A DNA stretch of 64,000 bases from Blastocatellia bacterium (GTDB lineage Bacteria; Acidobacteriota; Blastocatellia; RBC074): NCBI GenBank assembly GCA_016789725.1, contig JAEUQN010000007.1, forward strand, positions 1 through 64,000, in the 5' to 3' direction. The notes below the pieces were generated by a model. The model saw only the letters and a program-made list of their open reading frames with translations, made no database searches and was not told where the DNA came from. A program made the position numbers and the translations under genes. Shown piece by piece: positions 139 through 42,648 of this stretch. Within the stretch, counting starts at the first letter, position 1. Each line of letters begins with the position of its first letter.

Positions 139-3108
139 ATGGCGATCACGACCGGAACGCAGTTCGGACAGTACGCAGTCACCGCACCGCTGGGCAAAGG
201 CGGGATGGGAGAAGTGTATTTGGCCGAAGACGCTCGGCTCAAACGCAAAGTGGCGCTCAAGCTGTTGCCCGCTGAGTTCACTCAGAATTCCGAACGGCTG
301 CGCCGCTTCGAGCAGGAAGCGCAAGCGACCTCCGCGCTCAATCATCCCAATATCATCACGATTCACGAAATCGGCGCGCACAACGGCACGCATTACATCG
401 CTACGGAATTCATCGCCGGGCGAACGTTGCGCGATCACTTGCGACAACCATTGCCGCTGGATGAATCGCTGAACATCGCGCTGCAAATGGCGAACGCGCT
501 CGCCGCTGCACACGACGCCGGGATCATTCACCGCGACATCAAGCCCGAAAATGTGATGGTGCGCAGTGACGGCATTGTGAAGGTGCTGGATTTCGGCCTG
601 GCAAAACTCACAGAACGACACGGCGACGTGGCGATGGGGCGACAGGGCGAAGAAGCAGATACTTGGCTCGCCGAGTCGTCCCGTCCCCCTGTCGCCGCGT
701 CGCACTCCACCACGCCTGGCACAGTGATGGGAACCGCGAGTTACATGTCACCCGAACAAGCGCGCGGCGAGAAAGTAGATGCACGTTCTGACCTGTTTAG
801 TTTGGGCATCGTGCTGTACGAAATGATCGCCGGGCGGCAACCATTTTCCGGCGTGAATATGTTGGATGTAATCGGCGCGATCTTGCATCAGGAACCAGCG
901 CCGTTGCCAGCACAAAACGAAGCCGCGTCTGCGGAGTTGCAACGCATCGTTACGAAGGCGTTGCACAAAGACCGTGCCGCGCGCTACCAAACCGCGCAGG
1001 AACTCGCGCACGACTTGAAGGAGTTGAAAGACGAATTGGCGTATCAAGCCCGGGCCGCGCTGGGTACGCACGCGCCCCGCGTGCCATTGGCGAGCGTGAG
1101 CGAAGCCAACAGCTTGGTGAGCGAATCTGCTGAAGTTGAAGCGACCTCCTTGCCAGCGCAGCGCGCTTCGGTTCCCTCGCTCGCAGCACGCGAGGCGCGT
1201 GCGTACCCAAGTTCCCGTCGTTTGCTTTTCTCTCTTCTCGCGGTGGCGGCGATAGCTCTCGCAGTGGCGGCGTTTTTCTACTTCAAACGCCAACCTGCGT
1301 TGACCGACAAAGACACGATTCTGCTCACGGATTTCGAGAACAAGACGGGCGATGCGGTGTTTGATGGCACACTCAAACAGGCGCTGGCCGTGCATCTGGG
1401 GCAATCGCCGTTTCTGAATTTGTTTGCGGACGAGCGCGTGCGCGAGACGTTGCGCTTGATGAATCGCTCTCCCGACGAACGTCTCACGCCCGCCGTAGGC
1501 CGCGAAATCTGCCAGCGACAAGGATTGAAAGCAATGTTGACCGGTACGATAGCAAGTCTGGGACGCAATTACGTCATCAACCTCGAAGCCATCAACGGGC
1601 AAACGGGCGACGTGCTGGCGCGCGAACAAACCGAAGCCGAAGGCAAGGAACAGGTGCTGCGGACGCTGGGCGAAGCTGCGACGCGCTTGCGCGAGAAGCT
1701 GGGCGAATCGCTCGGCTCGATTCAGAAGTACGATGCGCCGCTGGCACAGACTACGACCTCATCGCTGGAGGCGCTCAAGGCTTTCTCCCAGGCACTTGAG
1801 CAGAATCGAAAAGGCCGTTTCGATGAGGCGGTTGCGGCGGGCAAACGCACCATCGAACTTGATCCCAAATTTGCCCTTGCCTACAGCCAACTGGCAATCA
1901 ACTACATTAACATTGGGCAACAAACACTGTCGGAGGAAGCGGCACAAAAGGCCTTTGCGTTGCGGGAGCGGGTCAGCGAGCGCGAGAAACTGGATATTAC
2001 GTATCGCTACTACTTATTAGTCACGGGGGAATTACCTAAAGCGATAGAGACGCTGGAATTGATTAAGCAAACATATCCGCGCGATGATTCACCATACTTT
2101 AGTTTAGGTAATCGCTACGACAGCATTGGCCGGTTCGAGAAGGCGGTCGAAGAACAGCGTGAACGCTTACGTCTGAACCCAAACGAAGGCAATGCACTTG
2201 TCTCTCTAACAGCTACTTTAATCCGCCTCAGTCGCTATGCAGAAGCCAAGGCCACGGCGGAACAAGCGATTGCGCTGAAATTTGACACCCCCGGCCTGCG
2301 CGGTTCCATGTATCTCAACGCCTTTATCAACGGAGATACCCCCGCAATGCAGCAACAGATAGACTGGGCGAACGCGAGGCCGGGGGAATATGCCCAGCTT
2401 ATCTGGCAAGCTCGGACGGCAGTATTTGGTGGTCAATGGCAAAAAGGGCGGGAATTTTCCAACCGTGCGGCGGAACTGGCTGATCAACGCGATTTGCAGG
2501 AAGTGGTTGGGGAGATCGTTTCATCGAACGCCGAGTGGGCCGCTAACCTGGGGCTTTGCCAAAAGAGTCGAACGGAATTGGCACGCATCGCTGCCTTACC
2601 TCACCCGCCACTTTCTTACCTTCGCGCAGGCATAGCGATGGCGCTGTGTGGCACGGCGGCACAGGCAAACACGCTCGCCAACGAAGCCGTTAAGCGGTAT
2701 CCCAAAGACACGCAGATCAACGAAATCTACCAACCCTTAATTCGCGCTGCGATTGAACTGCAACGCGGCAATCGCACGCAGGCGATTCAACTCCTCGAAC
2801 CCGCGCGACGCTATGAAAGCGTGAGCTTCTTTTATCAAAACTATCTGCGCGGTCAGGCGTACTTGGGCGAACGCAATGGCGCAGCGGCGGTCAGCGAATT
2901 TCAAAAGATTCTCGATCATCGCGGCTGGTCGCCTGCCTCGCCGCTTTATCCGCTCGCGCATCTCGGACTGGCGCGCGCGGCACTGTTGCAAGGCGACACG
3001 GCCAAAGCGCGCAAATCGTATCAGGCGTTCTTCGCCTTGTGGAAAGACGCCGATGCGGATTTGCCCGTGTTGATCGCGGCAAAGAAGGAATACGAAAAGC
3101 TGAAATAG
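139..3108 (+). CDS. Membrane Ser/Thr protein kinase with C-terminal TPR domain (PknB type)
   Basis: Predicted Hanks-type kinase of 989 aa, cytoplasmic N-terminal domain anchored by one membrane helix. Visible are the glycine-rich loop GKGGMGEV (about residues 19-26), the invariant lysine in VALKLL, the catalytic loop HRDIKPEN (about 130-137), DFGLAKL, and the APE-like segment [11 protein letters not shown] linker of about 308-358 precedes a hydrophobic helix at about 360-380 followed by FKRQ. The rest holds a domain beginning [12 protein letters not shown], common in acidobacterial kinases, and then TPR-like helical repeats to the C-terminus. The linker is largely encoded by an inverted repeat (1060-1209), suggesting an in-frame repeat insertion. 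Partner and signal are unknown. The kinase assignment is secure; the substrate is not. Confidence 0.93.
1060..1209. repeat. Inverted repeat inside the kinase gene
   Basis: The 24-bp arm at 1061-1084 and the arm at 1186-1209 are reverse complements with one mismatch. The 26-mer at 1060-1085 also occurs exactly, in reverse complement, at 58595-58620 inside the second kinase gene. The element encodes the kinase-to-membrane linker (about residues 308-357) without breaking the frame, which fits a repeat-family insertion tolerated in a disordered linker. Confidence 0.75.
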
Positions 3109-3484: not shown

Positions 3485-4540
3485 ATGCACAACTCACAAT
3501 TTTTACGGCTGCTCGTATTTCTATTGGTCTGGTCCTCGACGGTTTTCGCGCAGGAAACATCCGCGCAAAAATATCTCATCTCGGTCGAACGCATTTGGGA
3601 TCGCGCGCCGCACAGCGCGTTCACCGATTTGGTCGAATTCAATGGCAAGTTGTATTGCACCTTCCGCGAAGGTTCGGGGCATGTGCCGGGCAAAGAAGGC
3701 ACGAACGGAACCATTCGCATCATTGCTTCGGATGACGGACAAAACTGGCGTTCGGTGGCGCTGCTCACCGAAGAACACGTAGACCTGCGCGATCCGAAAC
3801 TGTCGGTGACACCGGATGGACGCTTGATGGCGTTGGTTGGCGGCTCGTATTACGAAGGCGAAAAGCTCGGCGTGCGACACACACGCGTTTCGTTTTCCGA
3901 TAAAACCGGCACGCGTTTCAGCGTTCCCAAACCAATTGTGGTGGAGGCCAAAATCAGAACCGACGCCGATTGGTTGTGGCGCGTGACCTGGCATCGCGGG
4001 ACAGGTTACGGCGTGATCTATCAATCCGGCGAAGACGAGTTCAAAGCGCATCTGGTCTCAACGCGCGACGGTCTCAACTATCAACTTGTGACTACGTTCG
4101 ACATCGCGGGACGCCCGAATGAAACGACGCTGCGCTTCAATGCCGATGGTGAAATGATCGCGTGGGTGCGGCGCGAACGCGGGACGCAAAATGGCTTCAT
4201 CGGCACCAGTCGCGCGCCGTACAAGGATTGGGCGTGGAAAGAACAGAACGTGCGTTTGGGTGGACCGAATTTTGTCGTGTTGTCGAATGGCAAATGGATT
4301 GGCACGACGCGCGGATATTTGCCGGATCGCAAAGCCAACACGTATGCCGCGTGGTTGGATCAGGATGGTACTTTGATGCCTATTGTTCCCTTTCCCAGCG
4401 GTGGCGACACGAGCTATGCGGGAATGATTGTGCGGGGCGATAAATTGTTGGTGTCGTATTACGCAAGCCACGAAGGGAAGTCGGCGATTTATCTGGCGAC
4501 GATGAATTTGCAAGCCTTAATGAAATCAGGTAAGGAATGA
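3485..4540 (+). CDS. Secreted sialidase-like six-bladed propeller protein
   Basis: 351 aa. The N-terminus [18 protein letters not shown]... ending FAQ is a signal peptide of about 22 residues. The mature protein reads as a sialidase/neuraminidase-type beta-propeller: an FREG motif near residue 60, an Asp-box-like SDDGQNW near 82, and repeated strand-turn patterns such as [13 protein letters not shown] and VRRERG. Family members cleave terminal sialic acid or related sugars from glycans outside the cytoplasm; the actual sugar here is not evident. Its stop overlaps the start of the sialate O-acetylesterase gene (ATGA at 4537-4540), so the two are probably translationally coupled and act on the same acetylated glycan. 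Confidence 0.8.
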
Positions 4541-6033
4541 AAACACCTATGAAAAAACTACTCATCTCCCTCAATTTGTTTTTCCTGTTGTCGGTGTCGC
4601 TATCCGCGACCGTGAAGCCGCACGCGCTTTTTACGGAGGGCATGGTGCTGCAACGCGAGATCGCTGTTCCGATTTGGGGAACGGCGGACAGCGGCGAAAA
4701 AGTTACGGTCGAATTCAACGGGCAAACGGTTTCGACGACCGCTGCCGATGGCAAATGGATCGTCCGGCTGAAGCCGCTCAAAGCGGGCGGACCATTCACG
4801 CTGAAGATCAACGATCTGCAATTGAATAACGTGCTGGTCGGTGAAGTTTGGATTTGCAGTGGGCAATCCAACATGCAATGGAGCGTCAAGCAAAGCAACA
4901 ATGCGGACGCCGAAATTGCCAATGCGAAATACCCGATGATTCGTTTGTTTACTGTGCCGCTCACCGAAATCAACACGCCGCAAACCGACATCAAATCCAG
5001 TTGGCAGGAATGCACGCCCGCCAACATCCCGAACTTTTCCGCCATCGGTTATTTCTTTGGGCGTGACCTGCACCAGAATCTGAATGTACCGATTGGGCTG
5101 ATTGACAACGCGGTTGGCGGCTCTCCGGCAGAATCGTGGATGCAAGCAGAACTCTTGAACAACGATGCGGAATACAAACAATTTCACGCGGCTTATCCGC
5201 AGGCGATGGATCGTTACAATCAAGCTGTTGCGAAACACAAAGAAGTCGTAGAGAAAGCGAGGGCTGAAGGCAAGCGTCCGCCGAATGCGCCCGGTCGTCT
5301 GTGGCTGCCTTCGGGGTTATACAACGGCATGCTTGCGCCGCTCGTTCCGTATGCGATCAAAGGCGTGATCTGGTATCAGGGCGAATCGAATGCGGGCCGC
5401 GCCTATCAATATCGCCGCCTGTTTCCGACGATGATTAAGAATTGGCGCGAGCGATGGGGGCAGGGAGATTTTCCGTTCCTGTTCGTTCAACTGGCGGCGT
5501 TTGGCCCGAACGCACCAAAGATTGGCGACAGCGATTGGGCGGAGTTGCGCGAGGCGCAGACTTTGACACTAACCGCATCGCCTCAAACCGGAATGGCCCT
5601 GGCGATTGATGTCGGCACGTATGACGACATTCACCCGAAAGCCAAACAACCTGTTGGTGCTCGCCTGGCATTAGTGGCGCGCGCGGTTGCTTACAAACAA
5701 AAGCTCGTGTTTTCCGGTCCCGTGTACGCTTCGATGAAAGTGAACGGCGACAAAATCGCGCTGAAATTCAATCACACGGGCGGCGGGTTGCAAGCGAAAG
5801 ACGGCGAGCTGAAAGGCTTTCTGATCGCCGGCGAAGACAAAGTCTGGCGCGAAGCCAAGGCCGAAATCAAAGGCAAGCAAGTCATCGTTTCCAGCCCTGA
5901 CGTAGCGAAGCCCGTTGCCGTTCGCTATGCGTGGGCGAAGTATCCGACTGTGAATTTTTATAACAAAGAGGGCCTGCCCGCGAATCCGTTTCGGACGGAC
6001 GATTGGGACATGGTGACGAAGCCCAAGCCGTAA
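4537..6033 (+). CDS. Sialate O-acetylesterase (secreted SGNH-type esterase)
   Basis: 498 aa with a signal peptide ([20 protein letters not shown], after an extra M-K-T-P). The start at 4537 overlaps the upstream stop; 4549 is an alternative that begins directly at MKKL. Nucleophile motif GQSNMQ lies at about residues 107-112, WYQGESN near 280, and the Asp-x-x-His-like DIHPK near 363, the expected layout for sialate O-acetylesterases. Such enzymes remove O-acetyl groups from sialic acid or plant glycans so that glycosidases can act. Paired with the sialidase-like gene and followed by an ABC sugar importer, it probably supplies sugar for uptake. The family is clear; the natural acetyl-sugar is not. 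Confidence 0.88.
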
Positions 6034-6142: not shown

Positions 6143-7648
6143 ATGACAGAAAGCCTCCTACTGCAAGCAAACTACATCACGAAATCTTACGCGGGCGTGC
6201 AGGCCTTGAAGTCCGCTTCGTTTGAACTGCGTGCGGGCGAAGTTCACGCGTTGATTGGCGAAAACGGCGCGGGCAAATCTACGCTGATCAAAATCATCAC
6301 GGGCGCGGTGGAAGCCGATGGTGGCGAACTGTTTCTCAACGATCAGCGCATCACGGCGAATTCACCGCAATATTCGCACTCGCTTGGCATCGCCGCGATT
6401 TATCAGCAGCCTGCGTTATTTCCTGAATTGACGGTTGCGGAAAACATCGCGTTCGGTTTGGAGCGACACGGTTTGTGGAGTCGCATTGATTGGCGCAAAC
6501 GTCGTCAGCGTGCCGAAAGCTTGTTGGCACAGGTTGGCGCGAAGATCAGCCCTGACGCGCTGGCGGGCGACCTCTCGATGCCGGAACAGCAACTCGTCGA
6601 AATCGCCCGCGCCTTGGGAGCCGAGGCAAAAGTGCTGATTTTAGATGAGCCGACGGCTTCGCTTTCCGAAGAAGACACCAACAATTTGTTTCGCGTGATT
6701 CGGGAACTGCGCGCGCGCGGCGTCGGCATGATTTACATTTCGCATCGGTTGGAAGAATTGCCGCTGATTGCGGATCGCGTGACTGTGCTGCGCGATGGCA
6801 ACACGATTGAGACGCGCGCCATGAACGAAGTGGATCGGCAGGAGTTGATTCGCCTGATGGTCGGGCGCGAGTTGTCGGCGGTTTTTCCCAAACGCGAAGT
6901 GCCGATTGGCGAAGTTGTGCTGGAGTTGCGCAACGTCGGCAGTCAGGCGGCAGGCGTGCGGGATGTCAGCTTGACGGTACGCGCGGGAGAGATTGTCGGA
7001 CTCGCCGGATTAGTGGGGGCGGGTCGAACAGAACTGGCGCGTACACTGTTTGGGTTGACGCCTGCGGATGAAGGCGAGATTTGGCTGAACGGCGAACGCC
7101 TCACCATCAATAGCCCAACCCAGGCGATTCAACACGGCATCGCGTATGTTCCCGAAGACCGGCGTCGTCACGGCGTCGTGCTGGATTTGCCGATCAGTCA
7201 TAACATCACGCTGGCGACGCTGAATCGCCTGGCGAAGTTCGGCGCGCTGGATTTCGAGCGCGAACGCGAATTGAGCGTCGAATACGTCAATCGTTTTGCC
7301 GTCAAAACGCCGACGACTTTTGCGCCCGTCGCTACGTTGTCGGGCGGTAATCAACAGAAAGTGGCCTTGAGCCGTTGGTTGGCGACGGAACCGCGCGTCT
7401 TGATTTTGGACGAACCGACGCAAGGCATTGATGTCGGCGCGAAATCCGAAATTCACACGTTGATGTGTGATTTGGCGGAGCGCGGCCTGGCAATTCTGAT
7501 GATTTCGTCGGAACTGCCCGAAGTGCTGGGAATGAGTGACCGCATCGCTGTAATGCACGCAGGCACGATTGTTGGCGTGTTATCGCGTGGCAACGCGACA
7601 CAGCAGAATGTGTTGTCATTGGCGCTGGGGCACGGCGCGAATGCATGA
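6143..7648 (+). CDS. Sugar ABC transporter ATP-binding protein (RbsA/RhaT type, tandem ATPase)
   Basis: 501 aa with two fused nucleotide-binding domains. The first has Walker A GENGAGKST (about 39-47), a signature region DLSMPEQQ and Walker B LILDEPTAS followed by ISHR. The second has the degenerate Walker A GLVGAGRTE and canonical LSGGNQQK and LILDEPTQG, the asymmetric pattern of ribose/rhamnose/autoinducer-2 importers. It energises the two permeases encoded downstream. A small repeat-filled gap (7647-7805) separates it from the first permease. The imported sugar cannot be read from the ATPase; rhamnose- or ribose-like monosaccharides are the best guess. Confidence 0.93.
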   Translation: MTESLLLQANYITKSYAGVQALKSASFELRAGEVHALIGENGAGKSTLIKIITGAVEADGGELFLNDQRITANSPQYSHSLGIAAIYQQPALFPELTVAENIAFGLERHGLWSRIDWRKRRQRAESLLAQVGAKISPDALAGDLSMPEQQLVEIARALGAEAKVLILDEPTASLSEEDTNNLFRVIRELRARGVGMIYISHRLEELPLIADRVTVLRDGNTIETRAMNEVDRQELIRLMVGRELSAVFPKREVPIGEVVLELRNVGSQAAGVRDVSLTVRAGEIVGLAGLVGAGRTELARTLFGLTPADEGEIWLNGERLTINSPTQAIQHGIAYVPEDRRRHGVVLDLPISHNITLATLNRLAKFGALDFERERELSVEYVNRFAVKTPTTFAPVATLSGGNQQKVALSRWLATEPRVLILDEPTQGIDVGAKSEIHTLMCDLAERGLAILMISSELPEVLGMSDRIAVMHAGTIVGVLSRGNATQQNVLSLALGHGANA

Positions 7649-7805
7649 AATCAAAAGGCAAAGTGCAAAAGGCAAAAGTTTATTCGGAAGCAAAGCCATT
7701 GTTTTTTAGATTTTCAAAAGCTACTCAAATCGCCGAAGGTAAAATTAAAAGAAAATAAGTGCCGACCTTTTGAGATTTGCCTTTTGCAATTTGCCTTTTG
7801 ATTTC
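7647..7805. repeat. 30-bp inverted repeat between transporter genes
   Basis: The arms 7647-7676 and 7776-7805 are reverse complements with one mismatch. Each arm contains two copies of an AAAAGGCAAA-like unit. The left arm overlaps the last codon region of the ATPase gene and the right arm ends 9 bases before the permease ATG at 7815. In RNA it could form a hairpin that affects expression of the downstream genes relative to the ATPase. Confidence 0.8.
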
Positions 7806-7814
7806 TCCAGTTTT

Positions 7815-8825
7815 ATGCCCAATTCATTTTTCTCCAACTTCAATCTCGCTCGTCATCAGCGCGAACTCGCTGCGTTGATCGCGTACGTCGCGTTGCTCGT
7901 CTTCGTCGGCATCGTTGCGCCATCGTTTTTCAATGCGGGGAACTGGCGTGATTTGGCGGTAGCGAATGCACCGGTGCTGATTGTGGCGATTGGCATGACG
8001 CTCGTGATTGTGGCCGGACAGATTGATATTTCGGTCGGCGCGCAATTCGCTGTATGCAGCATGTTGGCGGGCGCGCTCGCAAAAACCGGAATCCCCATGC
8101 CGCTATTGTTGTTGCTCGTGCCGCTGATTGGCGCGGCGTTTGGCGCGGTGAATGGCGTGTTTGTTGCGTTGCTGCGAATGCCTGCGATTGTGGTGACGCT
8201 GGCGACGATGGTCGTGTGGCGCGATGCGTTGCGCTGGATTACCGAAGGAACGTGGGTGCAGGGAATGCCCGCGAATTTTCAATGGTTCGGCCTGGGGCAG
8301 ACAATGGGACAGGTGTTGATTGTGGCGTTCGCGTTTGCAGTGCTGGTCGCCTTTTATTGGGCGCTTGGAAATTTGGGCGCGGGCCGAGCCGTCTATGCCG
8401 TTGGTTCAGAACCGGAAGCCGCGCGGTTAGCAGGCATCAATCCGCCGCGCGTGGTGTTGGCGGTGTTTATGCTGATGGGCGCGTTGACCGGTTTGGCGGC
8501 GCTCTTGAATTCGATCCGATTTATCTCCATTCCCAGCAATTCGGGATTAGGGTTAGAGATGAAAGCGATTGCTGCCGTCGTGGTCGGAGGTACAGTGATT
8601 TCCGGCGGGCGCGGCACCTTGATTGGCACCTTGATTGGTACGGCATTGCTCGGCACCATCGGCACTGCGCTCACGTTTGCGGGCATCAATCCATTTTGGG
8701 AAAAGGCTATTCAAGGTGCGATTATTTTGGCGGCGCTGGCTTCGGATGTGGTGTTGAGCCGAATTCGGAATTCAGAATTCGCAACGGGGAGTAAAGGCAC
8801 TCTGCAAATCGGGGGGGCGAAGTAA
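7815..8825 (+). CDS. Sugar ABC transporter permease (RbsC type)
   Basis: 336 aa, polytopic membrane protein. The start at 7815 (MPNSFFSNFN) is chosen because the in-frame TTG at 7770 would add 15 residues encoded by an arm of the inverted repeat. Diagnostic are the GQIDISVGAQ segment near residue 73 (family motif GGIDLSVG), alternating hydrophobic helices throughout, and GLGLEMKAIAAVVVGGT near 245 with the downstream glycine-rich GGRGTLIGT. It forms the membrane pore with the fused permease encoded 3 bases downstream (8829). Confidence 0.92.
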   Translation: MPNSFFSNFNLARHQRELAALIAYVALLVFVGIVAPSFFNAGNWRDLAVANAPVLIVAIGMTLVIVAGQIDISVGAQFAVCSMLAGALAKTGIPMPLLLLLVPLIGAAFGAVNGVFVALLRMPAIVVTLATMVVWRDALRWITEGTWVQGMPANFQWFGLGQTMGQVLIVAFAFAVLVAFYWALGNLGAGRAVYAVGSEPEAARLAGINPPRVVLAVFMLMGALTGLAALLNSIRFISIPSNSGLGLEMKAIAAVVVGGTVISGGRGTLIGTLIGTALLGTIGTALTFAGINPFWEKAIQGAIILAALASDVVLSRIRNSEFATGSKGTLQIGGAK

Positions 8826-8828: not shown

Positions 8829-10907
8829 ATGACTGCTCGCGCTCTGCAATCTATCCCGCCAATCCACGCGCGATTGTTTCCGAATCAGGAATGGACGTTG
8901 CTGGTGGTGTTGCTGGTGGAATGTGCGCTGTTCAGCGTGACGGGCAACAACTTTCTGACGACCAATAACGGCTTTGAGATTGTACGCCTGAGCGTGGAAA
9001 TTGGGTTGCTGGCATTGGCGTTGACGCCGGTCATTATCACGGGCGGCATTGATTTGTCGGTCGGTTCGATGATTGGTTTGTCGGCAGTCGTGCTGGGTGG
9101 TTTGTGGCACGACGCGCATTGGCCTTTGCCCGTTGCTGCCTTGGCGACGCTCGCGTTAGGCTCACTCGGCGGCGGATTGAATGCGTGGTTGATTGCGCGC
9201 TTGAACCTGCCTCCGCTGATCGTCACGCTCGGCACGTTTTCGCTGTATCGCGGATTGGCGGAAGGCTTGACGCGCGGACTCGAAACCTATCGTGGCTTCC
9301 CGTCGGAGTTTTTATTTTGGGGGCAAGGCTATTTGGGCGGCATTGTGCCACCGCAATTGTTTGTGTTGCTTGCGGCGATCATCGGCATTTGGTGGTGGCT
9401 GCATCGCAGTATTTACGGGCGCAGTTTGTATGCCATCGGTCTTTCTGCTGAAGGTGCGCGTTATGCGGGCATTTCTGTCGCACGGCGATTGATGTGGGTC
9501 TATGTGCTGTCCGGTTTGATTGCGAGTTTGGCTGCGATCATTTATGTCGCGCATTTAGGACAAGCCAAATCCGATGCTGGAACAGGCTATGAACTGATGG
9601 CAATTACGGCGGTCGTCTTGGGCGGCACTTCGATTTATGGCGGACGCGGAACGGTGCTCGGAACGGTGCTGGGATTGTTCGCCGTCGTGATTTTGCAAAA
9701 TGGATTGCGGTTGAGCGGGCAGCCTGCCGAACTGGCGGGGATTCTGACGGGCGTGTTGTTGCTGACGACCATTCTGATTGATCGTTACGCGCATCGCCGC
9801 CGCACAGTACCGACAGAAGTACATTCATCAACTGAGGACTTTGAAGTGAAAAATGCACATGTGGCTATTCTGAGCGCGGTCATTCTTGCTGCCGCGTTGA
9901 TCGTCGCGGGCAGCAATTGGTTGCTGGTTCGTTCGCTACAACAAAACACTGGCAACGTTCCGACGGCGGCCAATAACAATGCTGTGACGCCGACGACCAA
10001 TCGCAAATTGACGATTGCCGTGATGCCGAAAGCGAAGGGCGATCCGTACTTCGCCAGTTGTCGGCAAGGGGCGGAAGAGGCCGCGAAAGAACTTGGCATC
10101 GAATTGTTGTGGGACGGCCCGACAGAAGTTGATGCCGCAAAACAAAACGAAGTTGTCGAAGCCTGGATCACGCGCGGCGTGGATGTCATTGCCGTTGCCG
10201 TGAGCAACAAAGAAGCTATCGCAACCGTCTTGCGAAAGGCGCGTCAGAAAGGCATCAAAGTATTGACGTGGGATGCCGACGCCGAAAAAGATGCACGCGA
10301 TTTTCTGGTCAATCAGGCGACACCACAAGGCATCGGCTACACGCTTGTAGACGAAGCGGCACGCATTATGAATGGCGCAGGTGAATTTGCGATCATCACA
10401 GGCAGCCTGAGCGCGGACAATCAAAACGAGTGGATCAAGCATATCAAAGCGCGCGTGGCTGAGAAGTTTCCGAACTTGAAACTGGTGGGCGTGCAGCCCA
10501 GCGATGATGACCGCGACCGCGCGTTTACCGAAGCGCAAAACATCATGAAAACGCATCCGAACGTGAAGCTGATTATGGCGATTTCCGCGCCCGCCGTGCC
10601 GGGAGCCGCCGAAGCCGTGAAGCAATCAGGGCGCAAAGATATCAAAGCGATGGGGCTGTCATTGCCGAACCTCTGCAAGCCCTATGTTCACGATGATGTG
10701 GTTCCCAGCGTGATTTTGTGGAATACGATTGATCTCGGCTATTTGGTGGTGCATTCAGCGAAGGCGGTGAGCGAAGGCACGCTGAAACCCGGCGCACAGG
10801 AATTGATGGCCGGGCGTAAAGGCAAAGTCGTGGTAAAAGGCGATGAAATCATTCTCGGCCCGCCATTCGTTTTCAATAAAGGCAATATTGATCAGTATAA
10901 TTTTTAG
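8829..10907 (+). CDS. Fused sugar ABC permease and tethered substrate-binding protein
   Basis: 692 aa, about twice the length of an RbsC-type permease. Residues 1-335 are a complete permease (GGIDLSVGSM near 78, YELMAITAVVLGGTSIYG near 255). A basic cytoplasmic stretch (DRYAHRRRT) is followed by an extra hydrophobic helix at about 343-365, and then a periplasmic-binding-protein domain of peripla_BP_4 type from about 392 (LTIAVMPKAKGDPYF...) to the end. The solute receptor is therefore covalently tied to the transporter rather than being a free lipoprotein or periplasmic protein. No separate binding-protein gene is seen in the cluster. The fusion is read in one uninterrupted frame. Confidence 0.92.
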   Translation: MTARALQSIPPIHARLFPNQEWTLLVVLLVECALFSVTGNNFLTTNNGFEIVRLSVEIGLLALALTPVIITGGIDLSVGSMIGLSAVVLGGLWHDAHWPLPVAALATLALGSLGGGLNAWLIARLNLPPLIVTLGTFSLYRGLAEGLTRGLETYRGFPSEFLFWGQGYLGGIVPPQLFVLLAAIIGIWWWLHRSIYGRSLYAIGLSAEGARYAGISVARRLMWVYVLSGLIASLAAIIYVAHLGQAKSDAGTGYELMAITAVVLGGTSIYGGRGTVLGTVLGLFAVVILQNGLRLSGQPAELAGILTGVLLLTTILIDRYAHRRRTVPTEVHSSTEDFEVKNAHVAILSAVILAAALIVAGSNWLLVRSLQQNTGNVPTAANNNAVTPTTNRKLTIAVMPKAKGDPYFASCRQGAEEAAKELGIELLWDGPTEVDAAKQNEVVEAWITRGVDVIAVAVSNKEAIATVLRKARQKGIKVLTWDADAEKDARDFLVNQATPQGIGYTLVDEAARIMNGAGEFAIITGSLSADNQNEWIKHIKARVAEKFPNLKLVGVQPSDDDRDRAFTEAQNIMKTHPNVKLIMAISAPAVPGAAEAVKQSGRKDIKAMGLSLPNLCKPYVHDDVVPSVILWNTIDLGYLVVHSAKAVSEGTLKPGAQELMAGRKGKVVVKGDEIILGPPFVFNKGNIDQYNF

Positions 10908-28626: not shown

Positions 28627-30735
28627 TTATGGTTGCATACATGCTGTGTTATCGCCAAGAAACGCCGATAGGCTGCGGAGCGTGCCGTTTGCCCGTGTTG
28701 TACTGTCACCCAGAATCGTGCCGTCACCCAGAATTACGCCATCCCCAAGGATAATGCCGTCGCCCAGAATTGTGCCATCGCCTAACACCTGCCCCTGGGC
28801 CAACAACGCCGCATCCGCGAAGATGACGCCATCGCCTAACACCTGTCCGTTGGTGGTGATATTGAATGCGCCTGTCTTGAGCACGACACCGCTTGAAGTC
28901 ATACTCGCAACTTTGCTGAACACGCCGTTGCCGCAGATTGTCGCATCACCGAGGATCTGTCCTGTGCCATAAACGCTTTGCCATTGCGTCATCAATTCTG
29001 TACCCGATAAAAAGCCCCAATTGGTGATGACGCCGCGCCCCCAGTTAAAGGTTTGCCCGGCAATCGTGCTTTGTTGTGTTGGCAAGGCGGCAGTCAATAA
29101 GGCGGTGCCAACGGTTGTCGGTAACGTGGTTTTGACCAACCGCGCCAATCGAACCGCGCCGTCCACATTGAGCAGTCCTGCGCCCTGTTCCATCATATTG
29201 GCATTGGCCAGCGGTTGCGCCGTGTACATCAAAATCGCTTTGATTAAATTGGGTGTCAAGGCTGGATTGGCCTGTAGCATCAAGGCTGCTGTACCCGCTA
29301 CCACGGGCGTCGCCATTGAAGTACCGCTTAAATACATCACGCGGTCTTCAAGTTTGTTAGTAATGTTTGCCGACAGGGCCGGGTAATCCAGCGTTAACCT
29401 GTTTCTCTTATCTACAGCCTCATCGGGATTGTTGGAGCGTGCGCCCACGAGTTTATTGCCGGGCGCGACCAAATCCGGCTTGATTAAATTGTCGTATTTG
29501 CGGACGCCATTGATCGTGACATAGCCGCGCGTCGGGCCGCGAGAGCTATAACTCGCCATCGTATCGTCTGCGCGGGCATCGGTGCCGAACGTGTTCGCTG
29601 CGCCCACCGTGATGACCGAAGGCTCAATGCCGGGCGAATGAATGCCACCATAAATCTTTTGTCCGGCGGAATTTTTGCCATCATTACCAGCCGCCGCGAC
29701 AACGACGATTCCGGCATTGACGGCGCGTCGGGCTGCCAGACACAGTGGATCGTTGGCGTAACTGTCTTTGGCAATCGTGCCCAGGCTCAGATTGATGACG
29801 CGGAGGTTGTACGTCGCTTTGTTGGTGATACACCAATCAAGGGCCGCAATGACGTTGCTAACTATGCCTTGCCCATTGTCGTTGAGGACTTTGACCGCGA
29901 GAAGATTCGCGCCTGGCGCAATGCCCGTATAGGTTCCTGTTTTCAGCCCCTTGCCACCTGCTGCCAGCGACGCCACGTGGGAGCCGTGTCCAAAACGATC
30001 TTTGATGGCATCTTGCCCGGTGTAATCCTGCTTGCCGACCACGCCGGGATGACCGTTTGAAGCCCAGGTCAGCTTGTGAGAATCGTCTATGCCGCTATCA
30101 AGAATGGCAATGCCGATGCCTTTGCCGTCCAGGATTGTTTTCCCCGCAAGACTGCGAATGAGGGCCGTCCCCGTCGTGTTTTCAAGATGCCCCATCGCGG
30201 TCACGAGACGGTTGGGGCTGACGTAGGCGATGCTTCTTTCCGCTGCCAGATGGCGAATTGCCGTGCGTGGTGCTTCAATGGTCAATAAGCCCATTTTACC
30301 GTGCGATTGGCGTACTTGACCGCCGAGCCGCGCGAGTTTTTCTTGCCAGACAACTTGCGGGATCGAACTGTCTACCTGAACAATGAAACTCTGTTTTTCT
30401 TCTGCCAAGGTCTCAGAAGACGGCAACAATAAGCCGCCAAGTCGTGTGCGTTGCGGTGCGTCTTCGCCGTCTTCCTGCGCGCGTTGCGTCGCCCGTGTGC
30501 GGCGATTCTGGCGCACTTGCGCGAGCGTTTTGCCCTGCAACGCCTGCCGTTGTTCTTCGTCATCATCGGCCAGTAAGATTTCGAGATCAGGCGCGAGCTT
30601 GGAAGGTTTCAAGGCCTGCTGTTGCGTCCGTACTTCTTTTAGGGATTGCGCCTGCACGGGTACGAAGGTGTGCCAGGGACACGCGAGCAGAACTCCCAAG
30701 GTGGATGCGGCAATTTTTCTGGTGATGGACTTCAT
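28627..30735 (-). CDS. Secreted subtilisin-like protease (S8), copy 1, LGDG repeat tail
   Basis: 702 aa. A signal peptide (about 1-30) and a prodomain with a charged LLADDDEEQRQ segment and an I9-like inhibitor region (QSFIVQVDSS...AYVSPNR) precede the catalytic domain. The triad is D213 (AILDSGID), H250 (FGHGSHVAS) and S473 (SGTSMATPV), with AAAGNDG providing the oxyanion Asn. After WGRGVITNWGFLSG come an isolated QILGDAT unit, a QVLGDG unit, and then five tandem hexapeptides ending LGDG/LGDS (about 650-678), closing with GDNTACMQP. It is the last copy in transcription order. Probably self-processing and extracellular or surface-bound; the substrate is unknown. Confidence 0.93.
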   Translation of the reverse strand: MKSITRKIAASTLGVLLACPWHTFVPVQAQSLKEVRTQQQALKPSKLAPDLEILLADDDEEQRQALQGKTLAQVRQNRRTRATQRAQEDGEDAPQRTRLGGLLLPSSETLAEEKQSFIVQVDSSIPQVVWQEKLARLGGQVRQSHGKMGLLTIEAPRTAIRHLAAERSIAYVSPNRLVTAMGHLENTTGTALIRSLAGKTILDGKGIGIAILDSGIDDSHKLTWASNGHPGVVGKQDYTGQDAIKDRFGHGSHVASLAAGGKGLKTGTYTGIAPGANLLAVKVLNDNGQGIVSNVIAALDWCITNKATYNLRVINLSLGTIAKDSYANDPLCLAARRAVNAGIVVVAAAGNDGKNSAGQKIYGGIHSPGIEPSVITVGAANTFGTDARADDTMASYSSRGPTRGYVTINGVRKYDNLIKPDLVAPGNKLVGARSNNPDEAVDKRNRLTLDYPALSANITNKLEDRVMYLSGTSMATPVVAGTAALMLQANPALTPNLIKAILMYTAQPLANANMMEQGAGLLNVDGAVRLARLVKTTLPTTVGTALLTAALPTQQSTIAGQTFNWGRGVITNWGFLSGTELMTQWQSVYGTGQILGDATICGNGVFSKVASMTSSGVVLKTGAFNITTNGQVLGDGVIFADAALLAQGQVLGDGTILGDGIILGDGVILGDGTILGDSTTRANGTLRSLSAFLGDNTACMQP
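28709..28790 (-). repeat. 18-bp repeats encoding five LGDG hexapeptides (copy 1)
   Basis: Degenerate 18-base period; on the plus strand each unit reads like CCATCGCCCAGAATTxxG. Translated in the protease frame it gives QVLGDG, TILGDG, IILGDG, VILGDG, TILGDS. Confidence 0.9.
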
Positions 30736-30806
30736 AAGCTCTTTCGGTAGTAGTTACAGATACTCAGTTTTTGGACAACGCCCATTGAAACGAAATCTTT
30801 TGTGCC

Positions 30807-30850
30807 GAGTATGATGACTTTCTGATAACCGCCGTGAAAATTGGAAGAGG
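30807..30850 (-). promoter_or_regulatory. Conserved upstream block of protease copy 1
   Basis: Plus-strand view: GAGTATGATGACTTTCTG (30807-30824), then 14 bases, then AATTGG. This is a diverged copy: the third box is altered, but the 14-base spacing is kept. It lies about 70-115 bases upstream of the start at 30735. Confidence 0.6.
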
Positions 30851-30891
30851 AGTCGCAATCGCCCTGTCGTCGGGAAAACAGGAAGTGGAGA

Positions 30892-30942
30892 GGCGGGAAT
30901 CTCTGTGCCTGATCCCCGCCAACATACTGGCCAACATACTGG
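30892..30942. repeat. Stem-loop and 12-bp tandem repeat after protease copy 2
   Basis: GGCGGGA (30892-30898) can pair with TCCCCGCC (30913-30920). Directly after come two copies of CCAACATACTGG. It lies just beyond the stop of copy 2 (30946), but it lacks a T-tract, so a terminator role is weak. Confidence 0.4.
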
Positions 30943-30945
30943 TGG

Positions 30946-33063
30946 TTACGGTGCAGGCTGCATACACGCTGTTTCATCCCCCGCGAATATTGAAGCGGCC
31001 CTGATGCGCGTGTCGGACAACAGCATGCCATCCGAGAGCAGCATGCCATCAGACATCAACATGCCATCGGCTAAGGCGATACCATCGGATAACAACATGC
31101 CATCGGATAACAACATGCCATCCGCGAGCGCAATGCCATCCGCCAAGGCGATCCCTCGGCTGTGGATATGTGCCACGCCGGGATAGAGCGCAGTCCCTGC
31201 GGATAATTTATTCGGGATGATGCCAAAGATTTCATCGCTCACTCCGGTCGCATCCGCTAGTGTGCGGCCTTGCCCATACACGCTTTGCCATTGCGTCATC
31301 AAGCTAGTACCGTACAAAAAGCCCCAGTTCGTAATCACGCCTTGCGACCAACTCACGGTTTCTCCGGCAATCGTGCTGTTTGGTTGGGGCAGCGAATTGG
31401 TGAGCAATGACGCGCCAGTCGTGGTGGGCAGCGTGGATTTGACGAGCCTCGCCATCCGCACGGCACCATCTACGTTCAGCAATCCTGCGCCTTGCTCCAG
31501 CATATTGAAGCCTTTAATCGGTTGGGCCGAGTACATCAAAATCGCCTTGACCAAATTCGGCGTCAATTTGGAATTGACCTGTAGCATCAACGCGGCGGCT
31601 CCGGCCACCACGGGCGCAGCCATCGAAGTGCCGCTCAAATACATTGCGCCGCGCGCGTAATCTTTTTTCGTCGTTTCACTGCTGGCTTCCAGTTTCAGAT
31701 TTTGATTGAGCAAATAATTGCGCCACCAGACGTATTCATTCTCGGCTCCGGTGAAGACCTTGCTGGCGGATTTGGCACCAATCAGTTTATTGCCAGGAGC
31801 GACCAAGTCAGGTTTGATCAGGTTGTCATGTTTGCGGACGCCATCCACCAGAACGTAGCCGCGTGTGGGGCCGCGTGAGCTGTAAGACGTGACCACATCA
31901 TCCGACCGCATATTGGTGCCGAAGGTATTGGCCGCACCAACGGTAATCACGGACGGCTCAATGCCCGGCGAATTGATGCCGCCATAAATCTTATTGCCGT
32001 ACATATCCTTGCCGTTATTACCAGCGGACGTCACGACGACCAGGCCCGCATCAACCGCGCGCCGGGCGGCCAGACACAGCGGATCGTTTTGATAACTGTC
32101 CGTTGCCCGTGTTCCCAGGCTCAGATTGATGACGCGAATGTTCTGCTCTGCTTTGTTGGCAATGCACCAATCAATCGCGCGGATCACCGTACTGGCGGTA
32201 CCTTGCCCGTAATCATCCAGTACTTGCAAACTAATCAAATTGGCTTTGTACGCTACGCCTGTGTATGCGTTGTTGGCCCAGGAACTCGACCCCAGCGCCA
32301 GCGAAGCGACGTGCGAGCCGTGTCCGAATTCATCCATCGGGCGTGTGTCGCTATTGACGAAATCCTGCCGATAATGTGTTCGCCCATCATAAAACGAGTA
32401 ATGGTTGTCCACGACGCCACTGTCAATAATGGCGATTCCTACGCCGCGACCGTCTACGGTGGGCGAGTTATTCAGCAACCCACGAACTTGATAGGCTCCT
32501 GTCGTCGAGGTTATATGCCCCGTTGCAAACACGCGGCGATCCGGGCTGACATACGCGATTTCGCCCTGTGCCGCCAGGTGCCGAATCGCAGAGCGCGGAG
32601 CTTCAATAGTGAGCAAGCGGCTTCGATCATTTTGCTGTGTAATAAATCCGCCTAATGAGGCGAGCTTTTCCTGCCACACCACACTTGGCGTAGAGCCGTT
32701 GGTTTGGACAATGAAACTTTGTTTTTCCTCGGCCAACACTTCAGATGAGGGCAGCAGGGCATTGCTGATGCGCGTGCGCTGGGGCGTCTCTTCGCCGTCT
32801 TCCTGCGCGCGCCGGGCTGCACGCTTGCGGCGCTCCTGACGTGCTTGCGCGAGCGTTTTGCCTTGTAACTTCTGGCGTTGTTCTTCGTCGTCATCGGCGA
32901 GCAAGACTTCGAGATCGGGCGCGAGCTTGGAAGGCTTCGAGGCCTGTTTGGCGGGGCGTGTTTCTTGGAGGGATTGCGCCTGCGCGGGCAGGAATGTGTG
33001 CCACGGGCAACTGAGCAGGCAACCGAGGGTGAAGGCAGTAATTTTCTTGGTCGTGGATTTCAT
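30946..33063 (-). CDS. Secreted subtilisin-like protease (S8), copy 2, LADG/LSDG repeat tail
   Basis: 705 aa. Signal peptide (MKSTTKKITAFTLGCLLSCPW), charged prodomain with LLADDDEEQRQK, I9-like region (QSFIVQTNGSTPSVVWQEKL). Triad D214 (AIIDSGVVD), H248 (FGHGSHVAS), S480 (SGTSMAAPV); oxyanion Asn in TSAGNNGKD. The tail has an isolated RTLADAT unit followed by eight tandem hexapeptides mixing IALADG with MLLSDG/MLMSDG and ending MLLSDT, then AGDETACMQPAP. Among LADG-type copies it alone lacks the Thr-rich basic extension. A clear intrinsic terminator was not found beyond its stop. Confidence 0.93.
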   Translation of the reverse strand: MKSTTKKITAFTLGCLLSCPWHTFLPAQAQSLQETRPAKQASKPSKLAPDLEVLLADDDEEQRQKLQGKTLAQARQERRKRAARRAQEDGEETPQRTRISNALLPSSEVLAEEKQSFIVQTNGSTPSVVWQEKLASLGGFITQQNDRSRLLTIEAPRSAIRHLAAQGEIAYVSPDRRVFATGHITSTTGAYQVRGLLNNSPTVDGRGVGIAIIDSGVVDNHYSFYDGRTHYRQDFVNSDTRPMDEFGHGSHVASLALGSSSWANNAYTGVAYKANLISLQVLDDYGQGTASTVIRAIDWCIANKAEQNIRVINLSLGTRATDSYQNDPLCLAARRAVDAGLVVVTSAGNNGKDMYGNKIYGGINSPGIEPSVITVGAANTFGTNMRSDDVVTSYSSRGPTRGYVLVDGVRKHDNLIKPDLVAPGNKLIGAKSASKVFTGAENEYVWWRNYLLNQNLKLEASSETTKKDYARGAMYLSGTSMAAPVVAGAAALMLQVNSKLTPNLVKAILMYSAQPIKGFNMLEQGAGLLNVDGAVRMARLVKSTLPTTTGASLLTNSLPQPNSTIAGETVSWSQGVITNWGFLYGTSLMTQWQSVYGQGRTLADATGVSDEIFGIIPNKLSAGTALYPGVAHIHSRGIALADGIALADGMLLSDGMLLSDGIALADGMLMSDGMLLSDGMLLSDTRIRAASIFAGDETACMQPAP
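31010..31155 (-). repeat. 18-bp repeats encoding eight LADG/LSDG hexapeptides (copy 2)
   Basis: Eight 18-base units, plus-strand consensus near GCCATCGGATAACAACAT. Translation alternates IALADG and MLLSDG. Confidence 0.9.
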
Positions 33064-33132
33064 AAGCTTTTTCAGTCGTCAGTCAATCGAATCTTTTTTG
33101 ACAGTGAAGATTAAAGCCAAAAGGATTGTACA

Positions 33133-33186
33133 AAGTATGATGAGTTTCTGCTTTGTGCCGAAACAATTGGAAAACGCGGGGAATTA
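33133..33186 (-). promoter_or_regulatory. Conserved three-box block upstream of protease copy 2
   Basis: Plus-strand view: AAGTATGATGAGTTTCTG (33133-33150), a 14-base spacer, AATTGGAAA, then GGGAATTACA. On the transcribed strand the order is TGTAATTCCC, TTTCCAATTGTT, CAGAAACTCATCATACTT, followed by an untranslated leader of about 70 bases. The same boxes with the same spacing precede the other copies. No sigma-70 pair of normal spacing fits well, so an operator or alternative-sigma promoter is equally possible. Confidence 0.65.
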
Positions 33187-33233
33187 CAAGTAAGCACCGG
33201 AACGTTTAGCAACAGGTTTGTCATGGGTCAGGG

Positions 33234-33271
33234 AACAAACAAAAAGGCAGAGGATGTCAGCCCTCTGCCTT
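33234..33271 (-). terminator. Intrinsic terminator of protease copy 3
   Basis: Stem AAGGCAGAGG (33244-33253) with CCTCTGCCTT (33262-33271); on the minus strand the stem is followed by TTTTTGTTTGTT. It lies 24 bases after the stop of copy 3. The same hairpin follows copies 5 and 6. Confidence 0.85.
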
Positions 33272-33294
33272 GAAAGTCCTAACGGTGGATGTAC

Positions 33295-35415
33295 TCATTG
33301 TGCTGGTTTCATGCAGGCGGTGTTGTCGCCCAGCATTGCGGTCCCGCTAGTGGATTTTAAATTTGAATCGGCGCGTGTGGTGCCGTCACCCAAAATGGTG
33401 CCATCGCCCAGGATCACTCCATCACCTAAGATCACTCCATCCCCTAAGATCACTCCATCACCCAGCACCTGACCGCTGGCAAACAACACATTGGTGCTAT
33501 CGCCCAGAATCAAACCGCTACTCTTGATTGTGTAAGCCCCGGCTTTTAGTGTGGCACCGGAGGTGTTGCCGGAGACGAGGCTCAGCGTGCTGTTGGCGTA
33601 GGTCGTGGCATCGCCGAGTACTTGTCCCGTGCCATACACACTCTGCCATTTAGTCATCAGATTACTGCCGAACAGGAAGCCAAAATTGGTGATGACGCCC
33701 TGGCTCCATTTGATCGTTTCCCCGTAAATTGTACTGGTCTGTAAGGCCGGAAGCGCCGCTGTCAACAAGGCTGTGCCGTTGGTCGTGGGCAGCGTGGTTT
33801 TGACGAGTCGCGCCAGCCGCACGGCTCCGTCAATATTGAGTTGACCTGCGCCCTGTTCCAGCATATTGACGCCCGCGAGCGGTTGGGCGGAATACATCAA
33901 AATGGCTTTGACCAAACTGGGTGTCAGCTTCGGATTGGTTTCCAAGAGGAGCGCTGCTGCCGAAGCGACAACGGGGGCGGCCATCGAAGTGCCGCTCAGG
34001 TACATGACTTTTTCCGTGTCGAGCGTTCCGTCGCCCGTCCGCAGACTGGGATTATTGCGCGCCAGCAGGTTTTCCGTGCCGTTATAGTATGCCGATGCGC
34101 CAATCAGTTTATTGCCGGGCGCAACCAAATCAGGTTTGATGAGGTTGTCGTACTTCCGAACGCCACCGACGACAGCGTAACTGCGGGTCGGGCCACGCGA
34201 ACTGTAGGAGGCGACGGTGTCGTCAGAGCGATAGTTCGTGCCGAACGTATTGGCGGCCCCGACTGTGATGACCGAAGGGTCGTTGCCGGGGGAGTTGATC
34301 GCTCCATAAATTTTTCTGCCGCTGGAATCCTTGCCATTGTTGCCCGCCGAAGCCACGACGACAATGCCCGCATTGACCGCACGGCGCGCGGCCAGACAGA
34401 GCGGATCTGTTTTATAGCTGTCTTTGGCGATGGTGCCGAGGCTCAGGTTGATGACGCGAATGTTGTTCCCGTTTAGGACCCATTGTTTGTTGGTGATGCA
34501 CCAATCAATCGCTGCGATCACGCTGCTGGCTGTCCCTTTCCCTGTGCCATCAAGCACCCGCAAGCTAAACACACTGGCCCCACCTACCGCACCGGCATAG
34601 GCACCGTTTTTCAAATCATATTCTCCTGCGACCAGCGAAGCCACGTGCGTTCCATGCCCATACGGATCGCCGCTGATATTTTGCCCGGTGAAATCAACAC
34701 TTTTGACTTTCGTTCCCCACCCGGCCCATTGCATCAGGCGATGGGTGGCATCCACGCCGCTGTCAATCACGGCGACACTAATGCCAGAGCCGCTTAACCA
34801 GGTGTTGGTGTTGGTGTCGCCTTTATCACTGATGCCCGCGTTCCAATATCCTGTGGTTTCGACCACATGGCCGAAGGCGGCGATGGCCCGATCCGGGGAG
34901 ACATACGACACGCTGGATTCTGCGGCTAAGTGCCGAATTACATTGCGCGGCGCTTCAATCGTGACCAGTCCCATTTCGTTATGGGTCTGGCGCACACGCC
35001 CACCGAAACGGGCGAGTTTTTCCTGCCACACAACAGTTGGCGTGGAGCTGTCCACTTGCACGATGAAGCTCTGTTTTTCTTCTGAGAGGACTTCGGAGGA
35101 AGGTAGCAAGACACCGTTAAGGCGTTGCCGCTGGGGCGTCTCTTCGCCGTCTTGCTGGGCGCGCTGGATCACGCGTGTGCGGCGTTCCTGCCGTATTTGC
35201 GCCAGCGTTTTGCCCTGCAAGGCCTGGCGCTGTTCTTCGTCATCATCGGCCAGCAAGACTTCGAGATCGGGCGCGAGCTTGGCGGGTTTCGTTGCTTGTT
35301 TTTGAGTTCGTAACTCTTTCAGGGATTGTGCCCGCACCGGTACAAATGCGTGCCAGGGGCAACTGAGTAGAATCCCTAAGGTGAGAGCAGAGATTTTTTT
35401 AGTAGTGGACTTCAT
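33295..35415 (-). CDS. Secreted subtilisin-like protease (S8), copy 3, LGDG repeat tail
   Basis: 706 aa. Signal peptide MKSTTKKISALTLGILLSCPW, then the charged prodomain and I9-like region. Triad D218 (AVIDSGVD), H254 (YGHGTHVAS), S477 (SGTSMAAPV); oxyanion Asn in ASAGNNGKD. After WSQGVITNFGFLFG come an isolated QVLGDAT unit, an LILGDS unit and spacer, then five tandem hexapeptides (QVLGDG, three VILGDG, TILGDG), then LGDNTACMKPAQ. Its last codons and downstream sequence are almost identical to those of copy 6, indicating recent duplication or conversion of the 3' end. Confidence 0.93.
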   Translation of the reverse strand: MKSTTKKISALTLGILLSCPWHAFVPVRAQSLKELRTQKQATKPAKLAPDLEVLLADDDEEQRQALQGKTLAQIRQERRTRVIQRAQQDGEETPQRQRLNGVLLPSSEVLSEEKQSFIVQVDSSTPTVVWQEKLARFGGRVRQTHNEMGLVTIEAPRNVIRHLAAESSVSYVSPDRAIAAFGHVVETTGYWNAGISDKGDTNTNTWLSGSGISVAVIDSGVDATHRLMQWAGWGTKVKSVDFTGQNISGDPYGHGTHVASLVAGEYDLKNGAYAGAVGGASVFSLRVLDGTGKGTASSVIAAIDWCITNKQWVLNGNNIRVINLSLGTIAKDSYKTDPLCLAARRAVNAGIVVVASAGNNGKDSSGRKIYGAINSPGNDPSVITVGAANTFGTNYRSDDTVASYSSRGPTRSYAVVGGVRKYDNLIKPDLVAPGNKLIGASAYYNGTENLLARNNPSLRTGDGTLDTEKVMYLSGTSMAAPVVASAAALLLETNPKLTPSLVKAILMYSAQPLAGVNMLEQGAGQLNIDGAVRLARLVKTTLPTTNGTALLTAALPALQTSTIYGETIKWSQGVITNFGFLFGSNLMTKWQSVYGTGQVLGDATTYANSTLSLVSGNTSGATLKAGAYTIKSSGLILGDSTNVLFASGQVLGDGVILGDGVILGDGVILGDGTILGDGTTRADSNLKSTSGTAMLGDNTACMKPAQ
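33380..33470 (-). repeat. 18-bp repeats encoding five LGDG hexapeptides (copy 3)
   Basis: Units read ATCACTCCATCACCTAAG on the plus strand; three are almost perfect copies, the most homogeneous of the LGDG arrays. Confidence 0.9.
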
Positions 35416-35485
35416 ATGCTTTTTCGGTAGTCAGTCAATTCAATCGTGATCGAACAAGGGAGATTAAAGCCAAATTTGTTGTACA

Positions 35486-35539
35486 AAGTATGATGACTTT
35501 CTGTTTTGTGGTGTAACAACTGGAAAGAGCAGGGAATTA
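35486..35539 (-). promoter_or_regulatory. Conserved three-box block upstream of protease copy 3
   Basis: Boxes on the plus strand: AAGTATGATGACTTTCTG (35486-35503), 14-base spacer, AACTGGAAA, GGGAATTACA. Same arrangement as before copy 2. Confidence 0.65.
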
Positions 35540-35545
35540 CACTTG

Positions 35546-35580
35546 CCACAAAAAAGCCGGGCGCTTGAATCCCGGCTTTT
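35546..35580 (-). terminator. Intrinsic terminator of protease copy 4
   Basis: Stem AAAAGCCGGG (35552-35561) with CCCGGCTTTT (35571-35580); the minus-strand exit reads TTTTTTGTGG. A different hairpin from the GGCAGAGG type; it is shared with copy 7, the other protease with a basic Thr-rich tail. Confidence 0.85.
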
Positions 35581-35599
35581 GCTTGGCGACACCACCGCG

Positions 35600-37792: not shown

Positions 37793-37862
37793 ATGCTTTT
37801 TCGGTCGTCAGTCAATTCAATCGTGATCGAACAAGAGAGATTAAAGTCAAAGTTGTTGTGCA

Positions 37863-37916
37863 AAGTATGATGAGTTTCTGCTTTATGTCGTAACAATTGG
37901 AAAACGTGGGGAATTA
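37863..37916 (-). promoter_or_regulatory. Conserved three-box block upstream of protease copy 4
   Basis: AAGTATGATGAGTTTCTG (37863-37880), 14-base spacer, AATTGGAAA, GGGAATTACA on the plus strand. Confidence 0.65.
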
Positions 37917-37963
37917 CAAGTACGCACCGTAACCTTTAGCAACAGGTTTGTCATGGGTCAGGG

Positions 37964-38001
37964 AACAAACAAAAAGGCAGAGGATGTCAGCCCTCTGCCT
38001 T
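37964..38001 (-). terminator. Intrinsic terminator of protease copy 5
   Basis: Stem AAGGCAGAGG (37974-37983) with CCTCTGCCTT (37992-38001), then a minus-strand T-rich run. It lies 24 bases after the stop of copy 5. Confidence 0.85.
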
Positions 38002-38024
38002 GAAAATGATCGTTGTTGATAAAC

Positions 38025-40145: not shown

Positions 40146-40215
40146 ATGCTTTTTCGGTCGTCAGTCAATTCAATCGTGATCGGGCAGGGAAGATTAAAGC
40201 GAAAGTTGTTGTACA

Positions 40216-40269
40216 AAGTATGATGAGTTTCTGTTTTGTGCTGCAACAATTGGAAAACGCGGGGAATTA
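40216..40269 (-). promoter_or_regulatory. Conserved three-box block upstream of protease copy 5
   Basis: AAGTATGATGAGTTTCTG (40216-40233), 14-base spacer, AATTGGAAA, GGGAATTACA on the plus strand. Confidence 0.65.
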
Positions 40270-40316
40270 CAAGTAAGCACCGGAACCTTTAGCAACAGGT
40301 TTGTCATGGGTCAGGG

Positions 40317-42640: not shown

Positions 42641-42648
42641 CAATTGCC

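Follow-up and report, generated by a model that had tools for sequence, protein, structure and literature searches.

A CUT2 sugar importer gene in Acidobacteriota that appears to encode both a permease-tethered receptor and, from a conserved internal start, a separate one

The window analyzed here, a 64,000-nucleotide stretch of contig JAEUQN010000007.1 of a Blastocatellia bacterium (Acidobacteriota), encodes a sugar ABC importer of the CUT2 type in which a single gene is predicted to make two products: a fusion that tethers the receptor to a permease, and a separate 353 aa receptor initiated at an internal start codon of the same frame. Judging from sequence comparison, we put the probability of this reading, including the assignment of the cluster as an L-rhamnose importer, at about 0.8. 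We also consider it probable, with somewhat less confidence, that this is one member of a group of CUT2 importers in which one gene supplies both the tethered and the separate receptor via a conserved internal start. Such an arrangement would be ancestral to the fused clade (Acidobacteriota, Armatimonadota and MAGs labelled as Gemmatimonadota), would have been lost in one family, and would occur independently in a second CUT2 fusion.

The transporter cluster and the architecture of the fused gene

The genes of the cluster and the features of the fused gene are listed in Table 1. With its two-domain ATPase, its pair of BPD_transp_2 permeases and its Peripla_BP_4 receptor, the cluster has all components of the CUT2 type. 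In related loci, the ATPase gene is likewise found upstream of the fusion, and the gene order ATPase-permease 1-fusion is conserved.

Table 1. Features of the transporter cluster and of the fused permease-receptor gene (coordinates in the window).
Feature	Coordinates	Strand	Evidence or remarks
Two-domain sugar ABC ATPase, 501 aa, RhaT/RbsA-like	6143..7648	+	Pfam ABC_tran x2; NCBIfam CUT2 ATPase models
Permease 1, unfused, 351 aa from TTG 7770	7770..8825	+	BPD_transp_2, E 1.5e-38; ATG 7815 is an alternative start
Fused permease 2 and receptor, full-length product, 692 aa	8829..10907	+	Frame, Pfam, NCBIfam; at least 77 distinct fused homologues
Permease domain, CUT2, aa 1-325	8829..9803	+	Pfam; AlphaFold2 helices
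Internal Shine-Dalgarno core, GAGGA	9834..9838	+	7 nt before the internal start; hybrid energy -5.8 kcal/mol
Predicted internal start, GTG codon (aa 340 in the fusion)	9846..9848	+	ATG/GTG in 61/61 type A genes
Predicted separate receptor, 353 aa, including an N-terminal membrane signal	9846..10907	+	Sequence comparison
Extra membrane helix, aa 342-374	9852..9950	+	Hydropathy, AlphaFold2; sequence conservation in type A but not type B
Flexible linker, aa 375-392	9951..10004	+	pLDDT <50 at 374-390
Sugar-binding domain, RhaS/LsrB type, aa 393-692	10005..10904	+	TIGR02637, phmmer, Foldseek

The last gene of the cluster (8829-10907, forward strand) runs from ATG to stop in one frame of 692 aa. The Pfam matches in its product are BPD_transp_2 (aa 50-313, E 1.9e-41) and Peripla_BP_4 (aa 396-650, E 5.3e-60). 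The AlphaFold2 model of the fusion (mean pLDDT 85) contains the permease helices, a helix at aa 342-374 and a binding-protein fold; the helix is flanked by low-confidence segments (330-341 and 374-390), and the hydropathy maximum of the entire fused protein (aa 343-361) lies within it. This extra helix is predicted to be the last (eleventh) membrane helix of the fusion and the N-terminal signal or anchor of the predicted separate product. The basic residues after helix 10 (DRYAHRRR), together with the added helix, suggest that the receptor is located on the periplasmic side.

Frame, Pfam, NCBIfam and AlphaFold2 agree with the earlier note on this DNA, which described one uninterrupted frame containing a permease, an added helix and a binding domain. 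The receptor is indeed carried by just one of the two permease genes, permease 1 being unfused. No other RhaS-like binding-protein gene is present in the cluster, nor does the window's genome contain a further receptor of the fusion's subfamily; the nearest one, encoded on contig C487 in the neighborhood of another transporter, is 31% identical. The same architecture recurs in acidobacterial genomes and related ones, of which at least 77 are distinct. An assembly error or a frameshift separating the parts is excluded because the intact fused frame recurs in dozens of independent genomes, including that of the cultured Pyrinomonas methylaliphatogenes K22 (L074).

Immediately upstream of the transporter genes (3485-6033), the window encodes a BNR-type exo-enzyme-like protein without a Pfam match and a SASA carbohydrate acetylesterase, which would fit the breakdown of an acetylated rhamnose-containing polysaccharide. 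Farther away, seven consecutive genes of 702-730 aa on the same strand (28627-44850, reverse) apparently form a tandem array of paralogues; all three of those tested encode subtilase-family (S8) proteases. Two large Ser/Thr protein kinases with TPR repeats are encoded at 139-3108 and 56663-61807, the latter additionally containing an AAA ATPase domain.

A conserved internal start at the junction

The fused genes, which after removal of duplicates number 61 of type A and 16 of type B, differ at the junction between permease and receptor. In type A, the junction follows the pattern acidic run-(M/V)-(K/R)-N-S-Q-hydrophobic stretch-SNW, which resembles the signal-peptide start of separate receptors (MKNSLL... 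in Opitutae). The codon in the M/V column is ATG or GTG in 49 of the 49 type A genes of the first set (35 GTG, 14 ATG), in all 20 genes fetched after the hypothesis had been formed (about 12 of them from new species), and in 61 of the 61 non-redundant type A genes; the sequences are related, so these counts overstate independence. Elsewhere, the share of GTG among valine codons is 0.40, and the next highest conserved V column reaches 0.78 (first set, 49 genes). When codon changes were counted on the tree, the start column showed no synonymous V changes, compared to 11-23 at 29 comparable V columns, and it switched between ATG and GTG at least five times. Chance conservation of valine is ruled out by these column controls and tree counts. 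Because synonymous V changes are absent, yet ATG and GTG replace each other, we read the M/V column as a start-codon pattern and not as a protein constraint.

The nucleotides upstream of this codon show a corresponding bias. A Shine-Dalgarno core (GGAG, GAGG or AGGA) is located 4-13 nt upstream in 52 of the 61 type A genes, compared to 103 of 2166 control in-frame ATG/GTG codons (4.8%); the remaining 9 of the 61 have no standard core. The hybrid energy at the site has a median of -9.1 and a mean of -7.9 kcal/mol (control mean, -2.7), and in 30 of 49 genes the site ranks first by energy among about 35 in-frame starts; that of the window itself is of medium strength. The codon for Glu(-4) is GAG in 39 of 44 genes, versus 51% elsewhere. 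No other 6-codon window of the gene is as strongly conserved at synonymous positions as codons -5 to 0 (rank 1 of 645, 49 homologues), and folding of the start region is weaker than in synonymous shuffles (mean z +0.86; 49 of 61 genes). The Shine-Dalgarno energy is stronger than the mean of synonymous shuffles in 41 of 49 genes, with a median per-gene p of 0.295, and the Glu-rich run favors Shine-Dalgarno-like codons anyway. Given that this shuffle test is only moderately supportive, we place the weight on the start-codon column, on the placement of the Shine-Dalgarno core relative to control starts, and on codon choice. Both the start codon and the Shine-Dalgarno sequence are conserved within the frame beyond what protein constraint would impose.

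We propose that translation from position 8829 yields the full fusion, in which a single receptor would be tethered to one member of the permease pair, whereas the internal ribosome-binding site and the GTG at 9846 would give the separate receptor, beginning with the former signal sequence. The latter would be directed to the inner membrane, where it may be anchored or cleaved. The transporter would then combine one tethered receptor with a mobile, membrane-targeted pool serving the same transporter, and loss of the internal start would leave a strictly tethered version.

Fused genes without the internal start, and alternative readings

Type B, comprising family f16 and two further genes (L070 and L156), retains the fusion and the hydrophobic segment and has no conserved internal start. 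At a receptor identity of 0.7-0.9, the identity of the helix segment is 0.65-0.72 between type A genes but only 0.18-0.20 between f16 genes, a gap suggesting that the helix sequence is maintained chiefly in genes with the internal start. In the seven f16 genomes that were checked, a search at E <= 1e-15 found no second receptor of this subfamily, so the fusion can be sufficient there.

These type B genes, along with a frame that is open across the junction without exception, are what could be expected if only the fusion were made, with one fixed receptor per complex, and if the ATG/GTG column and the Glu run were a relic of an old receptor start or a protein-level constraint. We consider this improbable for type A. 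A relic would drift to GTC, GTT or GTA, like every other V column, and GTG and GTC are indistinguishable to a protein-level constraint; moreover, the placement of the Shine-Dalgarno core, the low folding, and a helix conservation that is lost exactly where the start is lost all favor a working start. Alternatively, a free receptor could be released post-translationally, without a second start, if signal peptidase cut the fusion behind the added helix. By its position, this helix derives from a signal peptide, and there are small residues (VAGS/AAS) ahead of an almost invariant Asn; however, such cleavage would leave the nucleotide-level conservation of ATG/GTG and of the Shine-Dalgarno sequence unexplained, and the putative -1 residue is often Thr, which makes a poor signal-peptidase site. 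As a substitute for the internal start, signal-peptidase release therefore strikes us as very unlikely, although cleavage and the internal start could operate together.

With internal initiation as the preferred reading, the claim of one fixed receptor per complex made in the earlier note has to be divided. The tethering of a receptor to one permease stands, but the conserved internal Shine-Dalgarno sequence and ATG/GTG start argue against the fusion being the sole product; a strictly fixed-receptor design would apply mainly to family f16 and the two other genes that have no internal start, and not to type A.

A second CUT2 fusion, found in another genome (L111:8147-10138, genome G003), consists of 663 aa and is about 31% identical to that of the window. 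By sequence, it is an independent, unrelated permease-receptor fusion of the CUT2 type. An internal ATG occurs at the same structural place and, in this one sequence, has the best Shine-Dalgarno site (-8.1 kcal/mol) of 50 in-frame starts. When fusions of this kind were sought in more genomes, just split or distant relatives were found.

Distribution and origin of the fusion

The fusion was detected in about 20 of 98 related genomes and in most of the 62 loci from the genome collection, and additional acidobacterial genomes carry it as well; the first set comprised 58 distinct fused frames. In Opitutae, in a planctomycete and in two acidobacterial loci (L081 and L123), permease and receptor are encoded by separate adjacent genes. 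In the tree of the permease and receptor sequences, the fused genes form one clade, with a support of 97 that, as a quick-search value on long branches, calls for caution; the split relatives fall outside this clade, and the fusion status requires a single change. In both split acidobacterial loci, the receptor ATG overlaps the permease stop codon (ATGA), and the receptor Shine-Dalgarno sequence lies inside the end of the permease gene (-11.2 kcal/mol in L081 and -7.9 kcal/mol in L123). This overlapping layout is likely to be the ancestral one.

We suggest a single origin of the fusion, in a pair of neighboring genes whose permease member already contained the ribosome site of the receptor at its end. 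In the fusion event, the stop codon would have been lost and the receptor start kept. Subsequently, the internal start would have been lost in one acidobacterial family and in two further genes, resulting in a pure fusion.

The fused genes of MAGs labelled as Gemmatimonadetes (L051, L052, L056 and L062) nest within the acidobacterial clade, which reflects either horizontal transfer or mislabelled bins. At L076 / L121, an otherwise fused gene contains a frameshift near aa 256-273, that is, in the permease part and not at the junction, possibly due to a sequencing error or because the gene is a pseudogene.

Predicted substrate

The gene context of the relatives and the host genome's own rhamnose genes indicate that the substrate is likely to be L-rhamnose. 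Fused loci are repeatedly found beside genes for L-rhamnose isomerase (RhaI), rhamnulokinase (RhaB), the RhaEW aldolase-dehydrogenase and rhamnose mutarotase (RhaM); further recurrent neighbors encode LutABC lactate oxidation, L-rhamnonate dehydratase, and GH106 and GH88 hydrolases. An operon-like cluster of RhaB, RhaI, RhaEW and a GH106-like gene is present in the window's genome on contig C599 (L109 4179-12878), apart from the transporter, so the linkage between transporter and pathway is indirect in this genome. Among the NCBIfam models, the one for RhaS (TIGR02637) is the best for the receptor, covering aa 396-691 (E 7.6e-72); its score of 242 bits is below the equivalog cut-off of 342 bits. 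The best solved relative found by phmmer is the rhamnose-binding protein of Kribbella (4kvf, E 7.2e-57), and the Foldseek search with the AlphaFold2 receptor fold gave LsrB and rhamnose-binding proteins as the best structural matches.

With LsrB structures as the top fold matches, the LsrD and LsrB models scoring well and no NCBIfam equivalog cut-off being reached, autoinducer-2 or another sugar has to be weighed as the substrate instead. We regard this as unlikely. The receptor scores 242 bits against the RhaS model versus 182 bits against that of LsrB, the fused loci repeatedly lie within complete rhamnose pathways, and the recurrent neighbors show no sign of lsrK, lsrF or lsrG; autoinducer-2 is disfavored by both the model scores and the neighboring genes.

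Comparison with known systems

The RhaEW route and the L-rhamnose ABC importer RhaSTPQ (RhaFGHJ) have been described in Rhizobium leguminosarum (PMC3870299). The predicted importer resembles RhaSTPQ in having a single two-domain ATPase, a pair of permeases and a binding protein of the RhaS type near rhamnose catabolic genes; unlike in RhaSTPQ, where the binding protein has a separate gene, the receptor here is fused to one permease, in a gene with a predicted internal start.

Fusion of receptor and permease is known from OpuA (OpuABC), the glycine-betaine importer of Lactococcus lactis (PMC11065425), and in the amino-acid importer GlnPQ receptor domains are covalently linked to the permease (PMC8025302). 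As in OpuA, the receptor domain is fused to the permease and would be held at the outer face of the membrane, and as in GlnPQ, the connection is a flexible linker. However, OpuA has a permease of another class and, with two identical fused subunits, two tethered receptors, whereas GlnPQ, which belongs to the amino-acid family and is not a sugar importer, carries two tandem receptors on each permease of a homodimer. The window's fusion shares with both the general design, a single polypeptide that comprises permease and receptor and in which a membrane helix would place the latter outside, but its permease is of the BPD_transp_2 family, whereas those of OpuA and GlnP are of the BPD_transp_1 kind. 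We know of no reported internal start in OpuA.

For the predicted dual output, the closest parallel comes from the Cas8 and Cas10 genes, in which an internal in-frame start yields Cas11 as a separate C-terminal subunit (PMC11899642). There, as predicted here, one gene gives rise to a large fused protein and to its C-terminal part. The products of those genes, however, are CRISPR effector subunits and not transporters, and their internal product has been shown experimentally, whereas ours is deduced from sequence. In the searchable open literature, which is a partial record, we found no CUT2 permease reported as fused to its receptor and no ABC importer reported to use internal initiation.

Implications

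Whether a receptor is tethered or drawn from a free pool is a standing question of ABC transport and has usually been studied across unrelated systems. In the present case, both receptor forms appear to be products of the same gene, and one acidobacterial family is naturally tethered-only. Replacing one codon by a synonymous one could abolish the separate form without altering the amino-acid sequence of the fusion, which would make the contribution of each form testable. Fused genes of this kind may also hide a second protein from annotation. If the proposed mechanism is true, it would represent a general way of combining receptor tethering with receptor excess.
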